From Vandammella animalimorsus (GTDB lineage: Bacteria > Pseudomonadota > Gammaproteobacteria > Burkholderiales > Burkholderiaceae_C): a DNA stretch of 64,000 bases. The notes beneath the pieces were generated by a model that saw nothing but the letters and a program-made list of their open reading frames with translations, searched no databases and was not told the origin of the DNA. A program made the position numbers and the translations under genes. Shown one piece after another: positions 10,449-29,102 of the stretch (position 1 is its first letter; every line of letters starts with the position of its first letter). Location of the stretch: contig NZ_NSJB01000003.1 of NCBI RefSeq assembly GCF_002285265.1, positions 124,001-188,000 of the forward strand. Direction: 5' to 3'.

Positions 10449-10805
10449 TCAGTTCTCCGGCTCGAAACCTGAAGCAGACGGCGCATCCGGATGCAACCAG
10501 GCTGGCATGTCGCGCCGCTCATGCAGCACGCGCCAGACATCGACGTGATCTGATCGCGCGACGTAGAACACCCAATAGGGATAGCGCTTCAAAGGCCAGC
10601 TGCGCAGGCCGGGCAGGTCCAGCTCGTGCGCGTAACGCGGCGAGCCGGTGGCCGGATGGCGGGCGATCTGGGCATAGGCCTGCTCCAGCGCGTCAATGAA
10701 GCCCAGCGCAGCGGCCATGGCCTGTTCGCGCAGATAGTGCTCCAAGGCCTGGTCAACGTCCCGCCTGGCCTGGGCCCGGGGGATGACAGGCGGCAGGGCC
10801 TTCAT
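10449..10805 (-). CDS. parE: RelE/ParE-family toxin
   Basis: A 118-residue protein with the compact ParE fold signature: an N-terminal helical pair (QARRDVDQALEHYLREQ), then PATGSPRYAHEL, LRSWPLKRYPYWVFY and the C-terminal VDVWRVLHERRD strand. Family members poison DNA gyrase or cleave mRNA; the WPLKRYPYWVFY block is more typical of ParE. Its start overlaps the stop of the upstream antitoxin by four bases (ATGA), so the two are translationally coupled. The C-terminus runs about 20 residues past the usual fold and is Pro/Ser-rich. It converges with pbpC. Confidence 0.85.
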   Translation of the reverse strand: MKALPPVIPRAQARRDVDQALEHYLREQAMAAALGFIDALEQAYAQIARHPATGSPRYAHELDLPGLRSWPLKRYPYWVFYVARSDHVDVWRVLHERRDMPAWLHPDAPSASGFEPEN

Positions 10806-11038
10806 CCCCGCGCACGCTGCACCTTGGCGCGCAGCGTGTCGAAATATGCGCCATCGGCAGGCGCGCCCGGCGCAGAAGCGGCGCCGGCCAGCAGCAGGCC
10901 GCGCAGTTGCTGGCGATCCTGATCGCGGCGGATCAGCTCGCGCACATACTCGCTGCTGGTGCCATAGCCACGCTGGCTGACCTGCTCATCGACAAAGGAC
11001 TTCAGGCTTTCGGGCAGGGAGATGTTCATCGTGCTCAT
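10802..11038 (-). CDS. parD: ParD-type ribbon-helix-helix antitoxin
   Basis: A 78-residue antitoxin with an N-terminal ribbon-helix-helix DNA-binding segment (MNISLPESLKSFVDEQV, then GTSSEYVRELIRRD) and a C-terminal tail that should wrap the toxin. The frame is open up to 11131, but the ATG at 11038 (or 11029) places the RHH strand at the N-terminus as in all ParD proteins. It overlaps parE by four bases. By family rule the ParDE complex represses its own promoter, which should lie in 11039-11117, between parD and the end of alr. The antitoxin-first order is standard. Confidence 0.85.
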   Translation of the reverse strand: MSTMNISLPESLKSFVDEQVSQRGYGTSSEYVRELIRRDQDRQQLRGLLLAGAASAPGAPADGAYFDTLRAKVQRARG

Positions 11039-11117
11039 GGCGCCGCATGCTAGGCGCAATGGCAAATTTTGGCAAGGCAGGCGTGCGGGCCCGTCGGCAA
11101 GGCTTGACCAAGCCTGC

Positions 11118-12251
11118 TCACTCAGCCCCATCCAAGGGCTGCACCGAAAACGGCACGCGCTGGGCCACGGCGCACATCAGCTCATAGCCCACGGTCTGCG
11201 CGCAGGCGGCCACCTCGTCGATGGGCAGCAGCGCGCCGCCGTGCTCGGCGCTGGCCTGGCCCCAGAGCACGGCCTCGCTGCCAATGCCGCTGCCGCGCCC
11301 GGCCGCCAGCGGCGCGCTCAGATCAACGGCCAGCATGTCCATGCTGATGCGCCCCAGCGTGCGGCTGCGCACCCCGTCGATCAGCACCGGCGTGCCGGTG
11401 GGGCACAGGCGCGGGTAGCCATCGGCATAGCCGCAGGCCACGATGCCCAGCGTCATCGGCTGCGGCGCGGTAAAGCATGAGCCATAGCCCACCGTCGCCC
11501 CAGCCTGCAGCTGCTGCGTGGCGATGATGCGACTGCGCAGGCTCATGGCCGGCTGCAGGCCCCAGCTGGCGGCCGTGCCGGCCGGGTAATCGGGCGCACT
11601 GCCGTACAGCGCAATGCCGGCGCGCACCCAGTCCAGATGGGTTTGCGGCGCGCTGCCAAAGCGCAGCACGGCGGCGCTGTTGCAGATCGTGCGCTCGCCC
11701 GGCAAGCCCTGCGCGGCCTGCTCGAACAACGCCTGCTGCGCGGCGATGCCACCTGGGCCATCGGCATCGCTGAAGTGCATCATCAGCGAGATTTCATCGA
11801 CCTGCGGCAAGGCGTTCAGCCGCGCCCAGGCGGCGCGAAAGCCCGCCGGGGCAAAGCCCAGCCGGTTCATGCCGCTGTTGAGTTTGAGGAACACTCGGTG
11901 GGGCGCATGCGTCTTGTGCGCGGCCAGCATGTCGATCTGCTCCTGGCAGTGCACGGTGTGCCACAGCGACAGGCGCGAGCACAGCTCCAGGTCGCGCGGC
12001 TCGAACACGCCTTCGAGCAGCAGGATGGGCCCGCGCCAGCCCAGCGCGCGCACGCGCTGCGCCTCCTGCAAATCCAGCAGCGCAAAGCCATCGGCGCCGC
12101 GCAGCGCCTCATAGACCCGCTCAATGCCATGCCCATAGGCATTGGCCTTGATCACCGCCCACAGCTTGGCATCGCCTGCGCGGGCGCGCACCGTAGCCAG
12201 GTTGTGCCGCAAGGCAGGAAGATGAACAGTGGCTTGGATGGGGCGCGGCAT
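11118..12251 (-). CDS. alr: Alanine racemase
   Basis: PLP enzyme that interconverts L- and D-alanine for peptidoglycan precursors, cytoplasmic. The 377-residue protein has the PLP lysine in VIKANAYGHG (Lys35) and the opposite catalytic base Tyr in VGYGSCF (Tyr256). MNRLGF and the C-terminal GRISMDMLAVDL segment are also typical. The frame is open to 12377, but the ATG at 12251 gives the conventional start MPRPIQATV; the upstream extension is Cys-rich and not family-like. In relatives alr sits next to lplT; here an accessory gene lies between them. Confidence 0.95.
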   Translation of the reverse strand: MPRPIQATVHLPALRHNLATVRARAGDAKLWAVIKANAYGHGIERVYEALRGADGFALLDLQEAQRVRALGWRGPILLLEGVFEPRDLELCSRLSLWHTVHCQEQIDMLAAHKTHAPHRVFLKLNSGMNRLGFAPAGFRAAWARLNALPQVDEISLMMHFSDADGPGGIAAQQALFEQAAQGLPGERTICNSAAVLRFGSAPQTHLDWVRAGIALYGSAPDYPAGTAASWGLQPAMSLRSRIIATQQLQAGATVGYGSCFTAPQPMTLGIVACGYADGYPRLCPTGTPVLIDGVRSRTLGRISMDMLAVDLSAPLAAGRGSGIGSEAVLWGQASAEHGGALLPIDEVAACAQTVGYELMCAVAQRVPFSVQPLDGAE

Positions 12252-25002: not shown

Positions 25003-25139
25003 GGGCGGGTGGTTTCTGCAAGGCATCACAAAGGGGTTTGGGCAACAGAGGGCAGTAAGCGCGCGGCGCATTGTGCCGTCTATCATGCGCTGCTGCGGCC
25101 ACAGCGCCGCGCCCAAGAGCCGTGCAGGAGATGAACAAC

Positions 25140-25922
25140 ATGCGCATGCCCACCGCCGCGCCATTGGAGCGCTACTGGATCGTCAACCCGCACACCGTGG
25201 CCGAGGCCAATCTGCGCATGGGCGCGGCCTTGATCATGGTCATGGGCGGGAGCATCGGCGCGTTCTCGCTGCTCAAGATCGGCGGCTGGTTCAGCCTGCT
25301 GGCCCTGCCCTTTGCGGCCCTGGCGCTGCTGGCGGCACTGGTCTGGGGGCGGCTGTTTGCCTTTGCCTTTTTGCACCCCCAGCGCCGCCTGGCGCAGATC
25401 GACCAGCACGGCCTGCGTCTGGCGGTGGATCACAGCGTGCTGGCCGGCTTCTGGCCCCGCCAGCAACTGGGCCCGCCCATGCCCTGGCAGCAGCTGCAGG
25501 CCGTCTACGCCTACCAGACGCAGCGCATGGGCGAGCACGGCATGCTGTACTTCAGCCACCTGGCCGTGGTGTTCAAGGATGGCCAGACCCAGCGCTTTGA
25601 CACCGACGTGCTGGGCCAGCACGCCGTCAGCGAAGACATTGCCGCCGCGGCCCAGGCCGTGCTGGCCGGCCAGCGCCCGCCCGCCGCGCCGGATGTGGCG
25701 CTGCACATCCGGCCGCTGGGCTGGCTGGTGGCGGCGCTCGGCCCGCTGTGCGTGCTGCTGCTGATCGCCCTGCTGGCCTTCAAGAGTGAGCTGCAGCCCA
25801 TCCTGGGGCCCCACTTCAATCGCACCAGCGACTACGCCATGACGCTGCTGCTCCTGCTGATGTGCGCCCGCCTGGCGCCATCCTGGCAGGCGCAACAAGT
25901 GGAGCTGCCCGAGCGGCGGTAA
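25140..25922 (+). CDS. Membrane protein of unknown function (four predicted helices)
   Basis: About 260 residues. AGGAG at 25126-25130 favours the ATG at 25140. Two membrane helices lie near residues 25-75, then a 100-residue cytoplasmic domain (DQHGLRLAVDHSVL, PWQQLQAVYAY, FKDGQTQRFDTDVL). A further helix pair lies near residues 190-250. The central domain reads like the PH-like/YcxB-type membrane-anchored folds, but no motif is decisive. It is divergent from dgt and isolated from other plus-strand genes. Confidence 0.6.
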   Translation: MRMPTAAPLERYWIVNPHTVAEANLRMGAALIMVMGGSIGAFSLLKIGGWFSLLALPFAALALLAALVWGRLFAFAFLHPQRRLAQIDQHGLRLAVDHSVLAGFWPRQQLGPPMPWQQLQAVYAYQTQRMGEHGMLYFSHLAVVFKDGQTQRFDTDVLGQHAVSEDIAAAAQAVLAGQRPPAAPDVALHIRPLGWLVAALGPLCVLLLIALLAFKSELQPILGPHFNRTSDYAMTLLLLLMCARLAPSWQAQQVELPERR

Positions 25923-26173
25923 TGCGAGCAATGGTGCTTTGTGGCGCAAAGCAGCCGGTCTCGTGACGGCCGCGTGCAGCAGCGCCTGCCGAGCCGGCCA
26001 CAGGCTTCAATGGCCCAATGACCAAGATTGGAGATTGACGTGCATGCGCATTGGCAGCGGATTCTGCGCTGCTGGCTTGGATAAGCCCAAGCATAAAAGC
26101 AAGTAGATATCCAAGAAAAAACCAATAACAAATCAATCAGTTAGGGATTTCTTCTTGGCTAACCCCTGGCTTT
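25923..26173. other. AT-rich gene-free spacer
   Basis: This 251-base stretch between two converging genes is much richer in A and T than its surroundings, especially 26091-26160. I see no gene, no clean hairpin terminator and no repeat ends. It may mark the edge of inserted DNA that includes the AlbA_2 gene. Confidence 0.4.
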
Positions 26174-27922
26174 TCAATCCTTCTTGGCGCCTGGTTCTAG
26201 ACAAGCTTGCTGCGCCGTCAGGCGCCATTGGGGGCGGGTCTTGCTGCCCGTGTTCACGATGATTGCATCGCGGCGCATGACCTGCAGCAGGTTCTTGATC
26301 TTGTTGGCCTTTTGCTGCTCGTCGAGCACCCCTGCGAGTTTGCCCAGCAACAAGTCATTGAGTTCCCCCCTGCTGGCCTGGCCGTATTTCTGCAAATACT
26401 CGATCACCAGCTGCTGGTAGTGGCGATCGTCCAGGCCGCGTTGATGGATGTACACGGCCCTTTGATCGGTCCAGTCCGCCACCTTGGATGAAATCAGGTA
26501 GTTCGGCGCTCGCCCTTCAATCAGGCCAGATTGTCTGAGCTCCGAGGCATCTTGCTTGCCGATCGGTTGCTTTTTCTGCACCTTGTCGAGCAGCAGAACC
26601 TGGCGCAACTCAAGATCGGCGCGCTTCATCAGCAACCGGGTGTATTTCGAATCCATCACCCGCCCCGGGATCGTCACCTCCACCCGTGGATGGCCTTGGG
26701 GACTCGTCTCGAATACGAAATCGGGCAAGGGAAAAAAGCGCTCACGTTGAGTCTGGAACATGCGGCGAATACCGCTGCCGACCTGATCGACCATGCGCAA
26801 GCGGATCATGCCGTCAATCAGCCATTGGTTGCGGTAGTGCTCAGGGGGAGACTGGTGCTCCAGCATCCACTCCACACTCGGGGGAATGAACTGCCCGAGA
26901 TTGGTGAACACCAGCCTGTCGGGATGCTCTACGACGTTGACCTTGCCGCCAAGGCGGTAGTCCTGATGCGCGATGCAGTTGTGCAGAGCCTCCCGAATGA
27001 CCCAGGCGTCGTATTGCTGCACCGCCACGGGAAACAGTGCGCCACCGGGCATCTCCTCGATCACATCGTTGCGAATCTGGCGAAAAATTCGCTCCGTGGC
27101 CAGCAAGAAAGGCATTCCGAAAGGGTGTGAAGGGCCTGCGGCATTGTCTGCGCCGCGCCGAATCCAGCTCAACTTGGCGTCCGCCGGGGCCAGGAAGTAC
27201 GCCGCCTCATCCTTGCCAAGCAGCAGCAGTGCTGCCCGCGTGATGCGCCCAGCCTTGGTCAGGCGCGCCTTGTTCAACAGGGTCACCACATCCCAGCCCT
27301 GGACCTCGGCGCGAATGCGCTCATGCCGCTGTGTATCGGGCTCTGCCTTCAACAGGTATTCGGTAAAGCGCAAGCGTGCTGCGTCCAGCGCCTCCGGATC
27401 CAGATCTTCCAGCGTCGCATCAGGCACGATTTCGCCCGACCAATCGGTCTTTTGATCCAACAAGCCCCAAATGCGCGACTCCTTGTCGGGATGCTCACTC
27501 AGGCTGGTTTTGTGGCTGTCGATCCGGATGTGGCGCACACCGGCAAATGCCAACGGGGCCGAGCGCGGCGCCCAGATCTCCAGCACCACCACCCGACCTT
27601 GCGGGTGCTGCACTTCGTGAAACTCAAAATCCGGCTTCGGCCGTATTTTCTGCGTCAGCCACATGCCCAGCGATTGATTGCCCTCGCCCTTGGCGTTGAA
27701 TGGGTCAAACGCTGTTCCTGTCACCTCATGCGTCTTGTCATCCACGCCCCACACCACGTAGGCCCGCTCGTGCTGCGCCAGCACTGCCGCATTGGCCAGG
27801 GCGGACACATACACGCCGATGTCCTGCGGCTCCTTCCAGTTCGACTTGAACTCCACCGTGCTGCTCTCCCTCGCCTGGGCGCGCAGCCGATTGACCAGCT
27901 CAATCAGATCGGTTTGCTCCAC
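26174..27922 (-). CDS. Schlafen AlbA_2 / HATPase_c_4-type ATP-binding protein
   Basis: About 582 residues. An N-terminal AlbA_2 domain (ESSTVEFKSNWK, then YVSALANAAVLAQHERAYVVWGVDD, then HIRIDSHKTSLSEHPDKE) is followed by a GHKL-like region (REALHNCIAHQDYR with Glu and Asn, then RLVFTNLGQFIPPS and VDQVGSGIRRMF). The C-terminal part contains winged-helix-like segments (RADLELRQVLLLDKVQ). The GTG at 27922 lies 9 bases after AGGAG. It begins 25 bases after aroB ends, so it may be read from the aro transcript. Codon use is less GC-biased than in aroB. These proteins are often accessory, with suspected roles in nucleic-acid sensing, regulation or defence; its actual role is unknown. Confidence 0.8.
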   Translation of the reverse strand: MEQTDLIELVNRLRAQARESSTVEFKSNWKEPQDIGVYVSALANAAVLAQHERAYVVWGVDDKTHEVTGTAFDPFNAKGEGNQSLGMWLTQKIRPKPDFEFHEVQHPQGRVVVLEIWAPRSAPLAFAGVRHIRIDSHKTSLSEHPDKESRIWGLLDQKTDWSGEIVPDATLEDLDPEALDAARLRFTEYLLKAEPDTQRHERIRAEVQGWDVVTLLNKARLTKAGRITRAALLLLGKDEAAYFLAPADAKLSWIRRGADNAAGPSHPFGMPFLLATERIFRQIRNDVIEEMPGGALFPVAVQQYDAWVIREALHNCIAHQDYRLGGKVNVVEHPDRLVFTNLGQFIPPSVEWMLEHQSPPEHYRNQWLIDGMIRLRMVDQVGSGIRRMFQTQRERFFPLPDFVFETSPQGHPRVEVTIPGRVMDSKYTRLLMKRADLELRQVLLLDKVQKKQPIGKQDASELRQSGLIEGRAPNYLISSKVADWTDQRAVYIHQRGLDDRHYQQLVIEYLQKYGQASRGELNDLLLGKLAGVLDEQQKANKIKNLLQVMRRDAIIVNTGSKTRPQWRLTAQQACLEPGAKKD

Positions 27923-27947
27923 TATCACCAACTCCTGGCATCGGCCA

Positions 27948-29102
27948 TCACGCGCCAGGCTGCGCCAGTGCCTGCAGCAGCAGGGCCTGCACGGTGGCGT
28001 CGTCCACCTTTTGCGTGATGGCCTTGCCCGGTTGCTGCAGCACGACAAAGCGCAGCGCCCCGGCCTGGGTTTTCTTGTCCACGCGCATCAGCTCCAGGTA
28101 GCGCTGGGCGCCGGCGGCGACATCGGCGGCCAGCGGCGGGGCCTGCACGGGCAGCCGGGCCTGTTGCAGCAGGGCCTGCAGGCGGGCGGCGAAGTCCTCT
28201 TGCACGGCCAGGCCCAGCCGTTGCGACAGCGCCGTGGCCAGCACCATGCCGGCGGCCACGGCGTGGCCGTGCAGCCATTGGCCGTAGCCCATGCCAGCCT
28301 CGATGGCGTGGCCGAAGGTGTGGCCGAAGTTGAGGATTTCGCGCAGCCCGGCCTCGGTTTCGTCGGCGCTGACCACGGCGGCCTTGATCTCGCAGCTGCG
28401 CCGGATGGCATGGCGCAGCGCATCGGTGCGGCGCGCCATCAGCTCGGGCATGTGCTCTTGCAGCCAGTCGAAGAACGCCATGTCGTAGATCGGGCCGTAT
28501 TTGATGACTTCGGCCAGGCCGGCGCTGTATTCGGCCGCCGGCAGGGTTTGCAGCGTGTCCAGGTCGCAGACCACCAGGCGCGGCTGGTAGAAGGCGCCGA
28601 TCATGTTCTTGCCCAGCGGGTGGTTGATGGCGGTTTTGCCGCCCACCGAGGAGTCGACCTGCGCCAGCAGCGTCGTGGGCACTTGCACGAAGGGCACGCC
28701 GCGCATGTAGCAGGCGGCGGCAAAGCCGGTCATGTCGCCGATCACGCCGCCGCCCAGCGCGTACAGCACGGTCTTGCGGTCTGCGCCCTGCGCCAGCAGC
28801 ACATCGAAGATTTGGTTGAGCACCTGCCAGTTCTTGTGCACCTCGCCGTCGGGCAGCACGATGGTCTCGACCTTGGCGTAGTGCGGCTGCAGGCGCTGGC
28901 GCAGGGCCTGGGCCAGCAGCGGCGCCACGCGCTCGTTGCTGACGATGTAGGCGCTGCTGCCGGCCGGGAAATGCGCCTGGGCCTGCTGCCACAGGGCCTG
29001 GCCCTGGCCGATGAGGATGGGGTAGGAGCGCTCGCCCAGCGCGATCGGCACGAGGTCGATGGCGGCGTCCGCTGCGCTGGTCTGTGGGGTCGATGGGTTC
29101 AT
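27948..29102 (-). CDS. aroB: 3-Dehydroquinate synthase
   Basis: Second enzyme of the shikimate pathway, converting DAHP to 3-dehydroquinate with NAD and a divalent metal, cytoplasmic. The 384-residue protein has [13 protein letters not shown] (NAD site), [15 protein letters not shown] and [10 protein letters not shown]. The metal ligands sit in LAEVIKYG (Glu) and [12 protein letters not shown] (His). It follows aroK after 69 bases, the conserved aroKB pair. The downstream neighbour is unusual for this locus. Confidence 0.96.

Follow-up and report, generated by a model that had tools for sequence, protein, structure and literature searches.

A Schlafen-type gene of restriction-modification lineages standing alone behind aroB in Vandammella animalimorsus, and the repeat element at its 3' end

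How does a gene of a kind usually met in restriction-modification (R-M) operons come to lie by itself directly behind aroB, and what could it do there? The question is raised by a window of Vandammella animalimorsus DNA (the window being the whole stretch analysed, 64,000 nucleotides long), in which a 582-aa open reading frame occupies 26174-27922 on the minus strand, with a GTG start at 27920-27922 and a stop at 26174. A sequence-only reading of the window had described this frame as a Schlafen AlbA_2 plus GHKL-type gene beginning 25 bases after aroB, and both the coordinates and the Pfam domains bear it out: the aroB stop ends at 27948, leaving a 25-base gap to the start of what we will call the orphan. 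The immediate surroundings are as follows.

25071..25922 (start maybe 25122), plus strand: gene assigned to no Pfam family, lying between the orphan and dgt and converging on the orphan
25940..27958, no strand: stretch unlike the flanks of the sister species, containing the orphan and its 3' element (comparison with genome G002)
26174..27922, minus strand: orphan Schlafen (AlbA_2) - GHKL-type - C-terminal helical/winged-helix-like protein (Pfam, AlphaFold, Foldseek)
27932..27936, minus strand: Shine-Dalgarno-like AGGAG, 9 bases ahead of the GTG (from the sequence)
27948..29102, minus strand: aroB, co-directional and directly upstream of the orphan (Pfam)

Genomic setting and distribution in the genus

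A search of the minus strand between aroB and the orphan for promoter-like and terminator-like sites found none and, judged from the sequence, it is plausible that the orphan is read from the aroB transcript. The claim that the gene is placed between aroB and dgt is right on the aroB side, but on the other side the plus-strand gene at 25071/25122-25922 intervenes, so that dgt is not simply next after the orphan. This intervening gene matched no Pfam family; a counterpart (89% identity) adjoins dgt in G002 too, and none was found in G007, in G008 or in the incomplete G009. Elsewhere in the window, two small overlapping genes at 10449-11131 (minus strand) look by eye like a ParD/ParE-type toxin-antitoxin pair.

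Among 10 genomes of the genus, its own included, a true homologue of the orphan is present in its own genome only, where it is single-copy; the other genomes gave no match better than E 2.6e-10. The presence/absence comparison thus agrees with the proposal that the gene is accessory, as it is missing from this site in all nine of the others. That aroB and dgt are commonly adjacent in relatives holds for seven of these nine, in which dgt follows aroB on the same strand, the two matches lying no more than about 260 bases apart, but fails for the two closest, G002 and G009 (aroB 97% and 94% identical, G009 being a fragmented assembly), where aroB is followed by other genes, which we take to be nitronate-monooxygenase-like and holA-like, and dgt is on another contig. 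Similarity to G002 stops near 25939 on one side and 27959 on the other, so the intervening ~2 kb is private to the window genome in the set compared; it also replaces the aroB stop, giving an aroB product of 384 aa here as against 380 aa in G002. A plain insertion into an aroB-dgt interval was considered and dropped, G002 and G009 being rearranged there: the junction (window 25071-29102; L072, L073 and L110 in the other genomes) is a rearrangement point, and dgt is located elsewhere in both, together with its divergent neighbour. At greater distance, matches at E <= 1e-60 occur in 23 of 299 genomes of a family sample and in 14 of 369 genomes of a class sample, the own genome being counted in each.

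The orphan also has the different codon character that had been ascribed to it. Its codon log-likelihood is 0.157, whereas 44 other genes of the window average 0.537 (sd 0.124), a strong signal but not a unique one since two native window genes score even lower; its GC3 is 0.76 against 0.88, and GC across the gene is 0.54-0.63 against about 0.68-0.70 around it. The case named in advance as refuting the accessory reading, a gene kept at this site throughout the genus and with codon use that matches, did not turn up.

Domain architecture and R-M context of the relatives

The chain divides into three parts.

27503..27868, minus strand: SLFN_AlbA_2 domain, aa 19-140 (Pfam E 6.5e-16), with putative active site E19, E24, D62
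26957-26992, minus strand: N-box E311xxxN315, just before HATPase_c_4
26711..26950, minus strand: HATPase_c_4, aa 325-404 (Pfam E 3.6e-12), a family found in 44 of 44 homologues
26177..26662, minus strand: C-terminal region, read from the helix/strand pattern in the AlphaFold model as a pair of winged-helix-like domains (aa 421-485; aa 486-582; the split at 485/486 is our own division)

The Schlafen domain scores 59.4 bits, above the Pfam cut-off of 25.3. In an alignment of 44 homologues, which omits eight of the 52 loci as partial or split, E19, E24 and K26 are invariant, and the position of D62 is occupied by D in 33, N in nine, and A and E in one each. The spacing of these residues (E-E +5, E-D +38) equals that of E205, E210 and D248 in rat SLFN13, whose mutation lowers tRNA cleavage according to excerpts of the published account, and the N-domain of that protein is matched in structure as well, with a Foldseek E of 5.6e-4 (PMC5862951, PDB 5YD0).

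The middle domain calls for more caution. GHKL proteins have an N-box of the form E-x3-N and a G1 motif, DxGxG, which includes an aspartate. E311 and N315 of the N-box are kept in all 44 sequences, and the canonical G1 aspartate is absent from the same alignment (N341 in 42 of 44, S in two), so that we class this part of the protein as a GHKL-type fold that may bind nucleotide, and not as a demonstrated ATPase. As for the C-terminal part, Pfam HTH models match only one of the 44 homologues; the helix/strand pattern of the AlphaFold model (mean pLDDT 88.5, pTM 0.64) fits a wHTH, and we read this part as winged-helix-like on the strength of that model.

With the AlphaFold model as query, the top Foldseek match, across most of the chain, is DIP2311 of Corynebacterium diphtheriae (PDB 3LMM, E 1.4e-19), from which it differs in sequence (15% identity) and, as TM-scores of 0.41-0.43 indicate, in the arrangement of the domains. 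Chains of SLFN14, SLFN11 and SLFN13 come next (E 1e-4 to 6e-4), and many histidine kinases are matched too. Unlike the mammalian Schlafens, to which its overall TM-score is low, the orphan protein has one Schlafen unit per chain in place of two lobes, and carries GHKL-type and C-terminal DNA-binding-like domains instead. Searches by sequence were less informative: NCBIfam matches to the protein were all far below cut-off, PADLOC gave weak partial matches only (best E 7.4e-5), and the PDB held no relative at E 0.01.

Proteins that combine a Schlafen RNase, a minimal histidine kinase and a wHTH are recorded from the BREX loci of no fewer than 1017 taxa according to excerpts of PMC12839542, which refers in turn to a preprint on the part that bacterial Schlafens play in phage defence. 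The window copy resembles these proteins in having a Schlafen domain first, then a GHKL-type ATPase fold and, at the C-terminus, a region read as winged-helix-like, and also in the defence context of its relatives, but it is an orphan behind aroB, and its relatives belong to R-M operons of types I and III; a 3' element of the sort described below is not mentioned in the excerpted text.

The expectation that homologues would be linked to defence finds support among the relatives. An R-M gene lies within five genes of the homologue (here X) in 33 of the 51 other loci, 22 of them type III and 11 type I, a few of these assignments being weak or short matches (e.g. L019, L082, L087); the remaining 18, several of which are short contigs, have none within that distance. 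In 17 loci mod stands immediately before X and res immediately after it. Type III loci usually have this mod-X-res order, and in several type I loci X follows hsdS. Pfam finds N6_N4_Mtase in 18 and Methylase_S in five of 43 upstream neighbours, and ResIII in 20 and RE_endonuc in 10 of 46 downstream neighbours, counts that depend on heuristic gene calls, with neighbours below 85 aa unscanned and, on the downstream side, two loci dropped and two neighbours exchanged. PADLOC, run on chosen neighbours, returned MTase_III, REase_III, MTase_I and REase_I, with type I enzymes in L017. Several type III loci have an SNF2-type helicase and a DUF4391 gene upstream; in RefSeq, a Phaeobacter plasmid shows the five-gene order helicase/DUF4391/mod-X-res, and a Sulfitobacter plasmid shows the same order plus an inserted IS256 transposase.

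No R-M gene lies within five genes of the window copy, which mod and res do not flank. In a quick maximum-likelihood tree it groups with L007 (SH-aLRT 99), then with L030 (99) and with L008/L009 (98). Its closest relatives lie between mod and res, both of which are absent at the window copy, and since it is nested among copies from type III mod-X-res operons it is best read as an orphan of such an operon. It is probably a phage-defence gene of a type whose usual place is within R-M operons.

Several other loci deserve mention. On contig C19 of the own genome (L127 5793-10438) there is a second mod-res pair of type III-like character, with 11 bases between its genes and no Schlafen gene; it was considered as the orphan's source and set aside, as its mod is only 39% identical to that of L007 and no Schlafen gene lies between mod and res. 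Contig C1 (L128 3976-14200) has a same-strand run of helicase-like, DUF262-like, methyltransferase, RhuM-like and ResIII genes; the RhuM-like gene occupies the place that the Schlafen gene has in other loci. Among loci lacking R-M genes nearby, X follows shortly behind an unrelated same-strand gene in some, L085 (27 bases) and L089 (3 bases) being examples. In genome G082 (L071/L086) a broken copy adjoins an intact relative, and the L029 copy is divided over two frames. L010 was tried as a half-decayed type III locus because its 3' flank resembles a res start, and rejected: the resemblance is by eye only, BLAST returned nothing beyond a shared core of 16 bases, and its upstream genes gave no match to the mod, res, helicase and DUF4391 clusters.

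A repeat element at the 3' end of the gene

When the 3' flanks of the homologues are aligned, a common core appears right behind the stop, regardless of which gene follows. In the window the element comprises four parts.

26180..26187, minus strand: direct arm CCAAGAAG, within the last codons of the orphan
26151..26158, minus strand: direct arm CCAAGAAG, 15 bases past the stop
26131..26143, plus strand: IHF consensus AATCAATCAGTTA, a candidate site that fits WATCAAnnnnTTR
26111..26118, plus strand: inverted arm CCAAGAAA, one mismatch (from the sequence)

The consensus WATCAAnnnnTTR for integration host factor (IHF) is that given in excerpts of PMC10380432. Of 51 loci, the window included, 30 carry it no more than 150 bases from the stop, compared with eight of 607 control genes, which are the remaining genes at these loci (Fisher P 6e-31, a value that overstates independence since the loci are related). 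Its orientation goes by clade, reverse in 17 and forward in 13. The arms vary among loci, being TTAGACAA, TGCAGAGA, AGCCAATG or others where the window has CCAAGAAG. Repeated 8-mers between -35 and +170 are significant at p <= 0.05 in 23 of the 43 loci tested, versus 30 of 250 control regions (P 7e-9), in a test that omits nine of the 52 loci (seven of Bacteroidota, one Nitrospira fragment and one contig end); the window's own repeats are not significant by this 8-mer test (p 0.20), and its IHF consensus is present.

Spacing within the element is regular. In loci with TTAGACAA arms and a core, the direct arm begins 46-48 bases past the core start in nine of 10 and the inverted arm 19 bases past it in four of 10; in the other clade the arm distance, taken over 13 loci, is 34-36 in four, 45-47 in six and 57 in one, with two exceptions, the value for L085 resting on an arm that matches exactly and a core that has a single mismatch. 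Tandem arms with an 11-base period occur in L093, L100 and L141. Steps of about 11 bases, together with the tandem arms, suggest binding along one face of the DNA, with the reservation that the arms used for the spacing analysis were hand-picked after inspection. L030 has the 3' core twice between its Schlafen gene and res (11737-12003), the second at +203; the idea that the second core marks a displaced C-terminus was dropped, there being no translated match.

How general is the element? In 16 further loci from other families and from Alphaproteobacterial plasmids (one of 17 was omitted as lacking the gene's end), repeats reach p <= 0.05 in nine, compared with four of 51 controls (P 1.2e-4). 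The 16 are not fully independent, as three of them are closely related plasmid copies from Rhodobacterales. The IHF consensus is present in none of these 16, nor in any of 51 control genes. The arms therefore generalise and the IHF core does not, and we reject IHF as a general feature of the element.

The identity of the arms goes with that of the last domain. L093/L095 are 26-28% identical in the Schlafen domain to L094, L097, L098 and L099; in the last domain identity to the same loci is 39-58%, and the arm GCCAAT is common to them. The last domain of L093 is 14-23% identical to those of L096, L092 and L091, and their repeats differ. Over 25 loci, arm similarity tracks last-domain identity when the three other domains are controlled for (partial Mantel r 0.50, p 0.0005), again with arms that were hand-picked after inspection. 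No description of such a 3' element, and none linking Schlafen with type III restriction, was found in the literature searched, and a text search (most subscription papers and preprints being outside its coverage) returned no paper on Schlafen together with integration host factor. The sequence-only reading had put the mechanism of such proteins down as unknown; the kept Schlafen catalytic residues and this previously unseen repeat element narrow it.

Alternative readings and a possible mechanism

The simplest alternative is that the orphan is a decaying remnant, on its way out after the loss of its R-M partners and without present function. The orphan state itself would fit, as would the broken relative in G082 and the split copy in L029, and the window branch carries more non-synonymous change by simple parsimony (79 synonymous and 111 non-synonymous inferred changes) than that of L007 (97 and 69), with an end branch of 0.30 as against 0.15. 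That excess suggests that constraint has weakened or changed. Yet all 582 codons are open, the catalytic and N-box residues are intact, the ribosome-binding site is good, and the pairwise comparison with L007 (dN 0.19, dS 1.15) indicates constraint on the gene, so far as can be read from these sequences; we regard a remnant as unlikely. We extend the same low probability to a DNA-binding transcription regulator, of res for example, that uses a Schlafen fold with no RNase role. Schlafen-fold proteins of this sort are often annotated as regulators, one phage record labels such a protein 'putative transcriptional regulator', the arms follow the C-terminal domain, and in type III operons the arm element lies between X and res. 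Against this, the element stays 3' of X where X is terminal in type I loci and in orphans, without any res, arms of the TTTAGACAAG type are mostly near the 3' end and rarely elsewhere in their loci, and the Schlafen glutamates are invariant.

Two further alternatives concern the element. It might be RNA (a terminator, a 3'-UTR structure or a small RNA partner) in place of a protein-DNA site, as its inverted arms can pair and the inverted repeat of the window would also make a good RNA hairpin (z -3.39; -2.47 in L082). The z-score is, however, 0.12 in L012 and only -1.6 to -1.7 in L033, L084 and L094, the IHF core is inverted between clades, the repeat spacings step by about 11 bp, and Rfam has nothing close to cut-offs near the element, all of which makes an RNA role in our view quite improbable. 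Least credible to us is a mobile cassette, comparable to an integron cassette without a promoter, in which the element would serve for recombination: the gene does sit close behind unrelated same-strand genes, whether the locus is type III, type I or orphan, the element travels with it, and L030 has a second copy of the core, but no recombinase was found nearby and no matching site on the 5' side, the own genome holds one copy only, and branching in the tree goes with R-M type (12 changes versus 24.4 in shuffles).

The reading we prefer, in which we have about even confidence, is that the protein is a Schlafen RNase anchored to DNA, of a kind at home in R-M loci, whose gene was captured behind aroB; its function we infer. 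A copy of the type III mod-X-res lineage of this single Schlafen-type effector gene, whose normal home would be R-M operons, may have entered the genome without mod and res and been kept immediately downstream of aroB, probably sharing the aroB transcript while having a ribosome-binding site of its own. The C-terminal domain would hold the protein on the arm repeats at the 3' end of its own gene, a step suggested by the 3' element, and in Burkholderiales IHF would bend the DNA between the arms. The GHKL-type domain could act as a switch in which a nucleotide-dependent change is coupled to activity. Upon infection or DNA damage, the Schlafen domain would cleave tRNA-like RNA and growth would stop; the conserved Schlafen residues and what excerpts of PMC12839542 report for the BREX proteins point to this RNase step, and the trigger for release is a guess. 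It is tempting to go further and to speculate that these Schlafen-GHKL-wHTH effectors each have a private anchoring array at the 3' end, of helically phased arms with an IHF bend in Burkholderiales, co-diversifying in sequence with the C-terminal domain, on which the protein would stay silent until phage attack freed the RNase. We offer this only as a tentative idea and would not bet on it. A phage that degrades or strips host DNA would in that event free the RNase from the array, and release by loss of host DNA would let the gene work by itself, as in the window.

Schlafen effectors are a common thread between the antiviral defences of animals and bacteria, and the literature searched gives no account of what holds the bacterial proteins inactive. 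A repeat element that is conserved and specific to each locus would be a cheap and direct handle on the target of the DNA-binding tail and on the control of the RNase, and the orphan behind aroB shows that a Schlafen unit can persist without its R-M partners.
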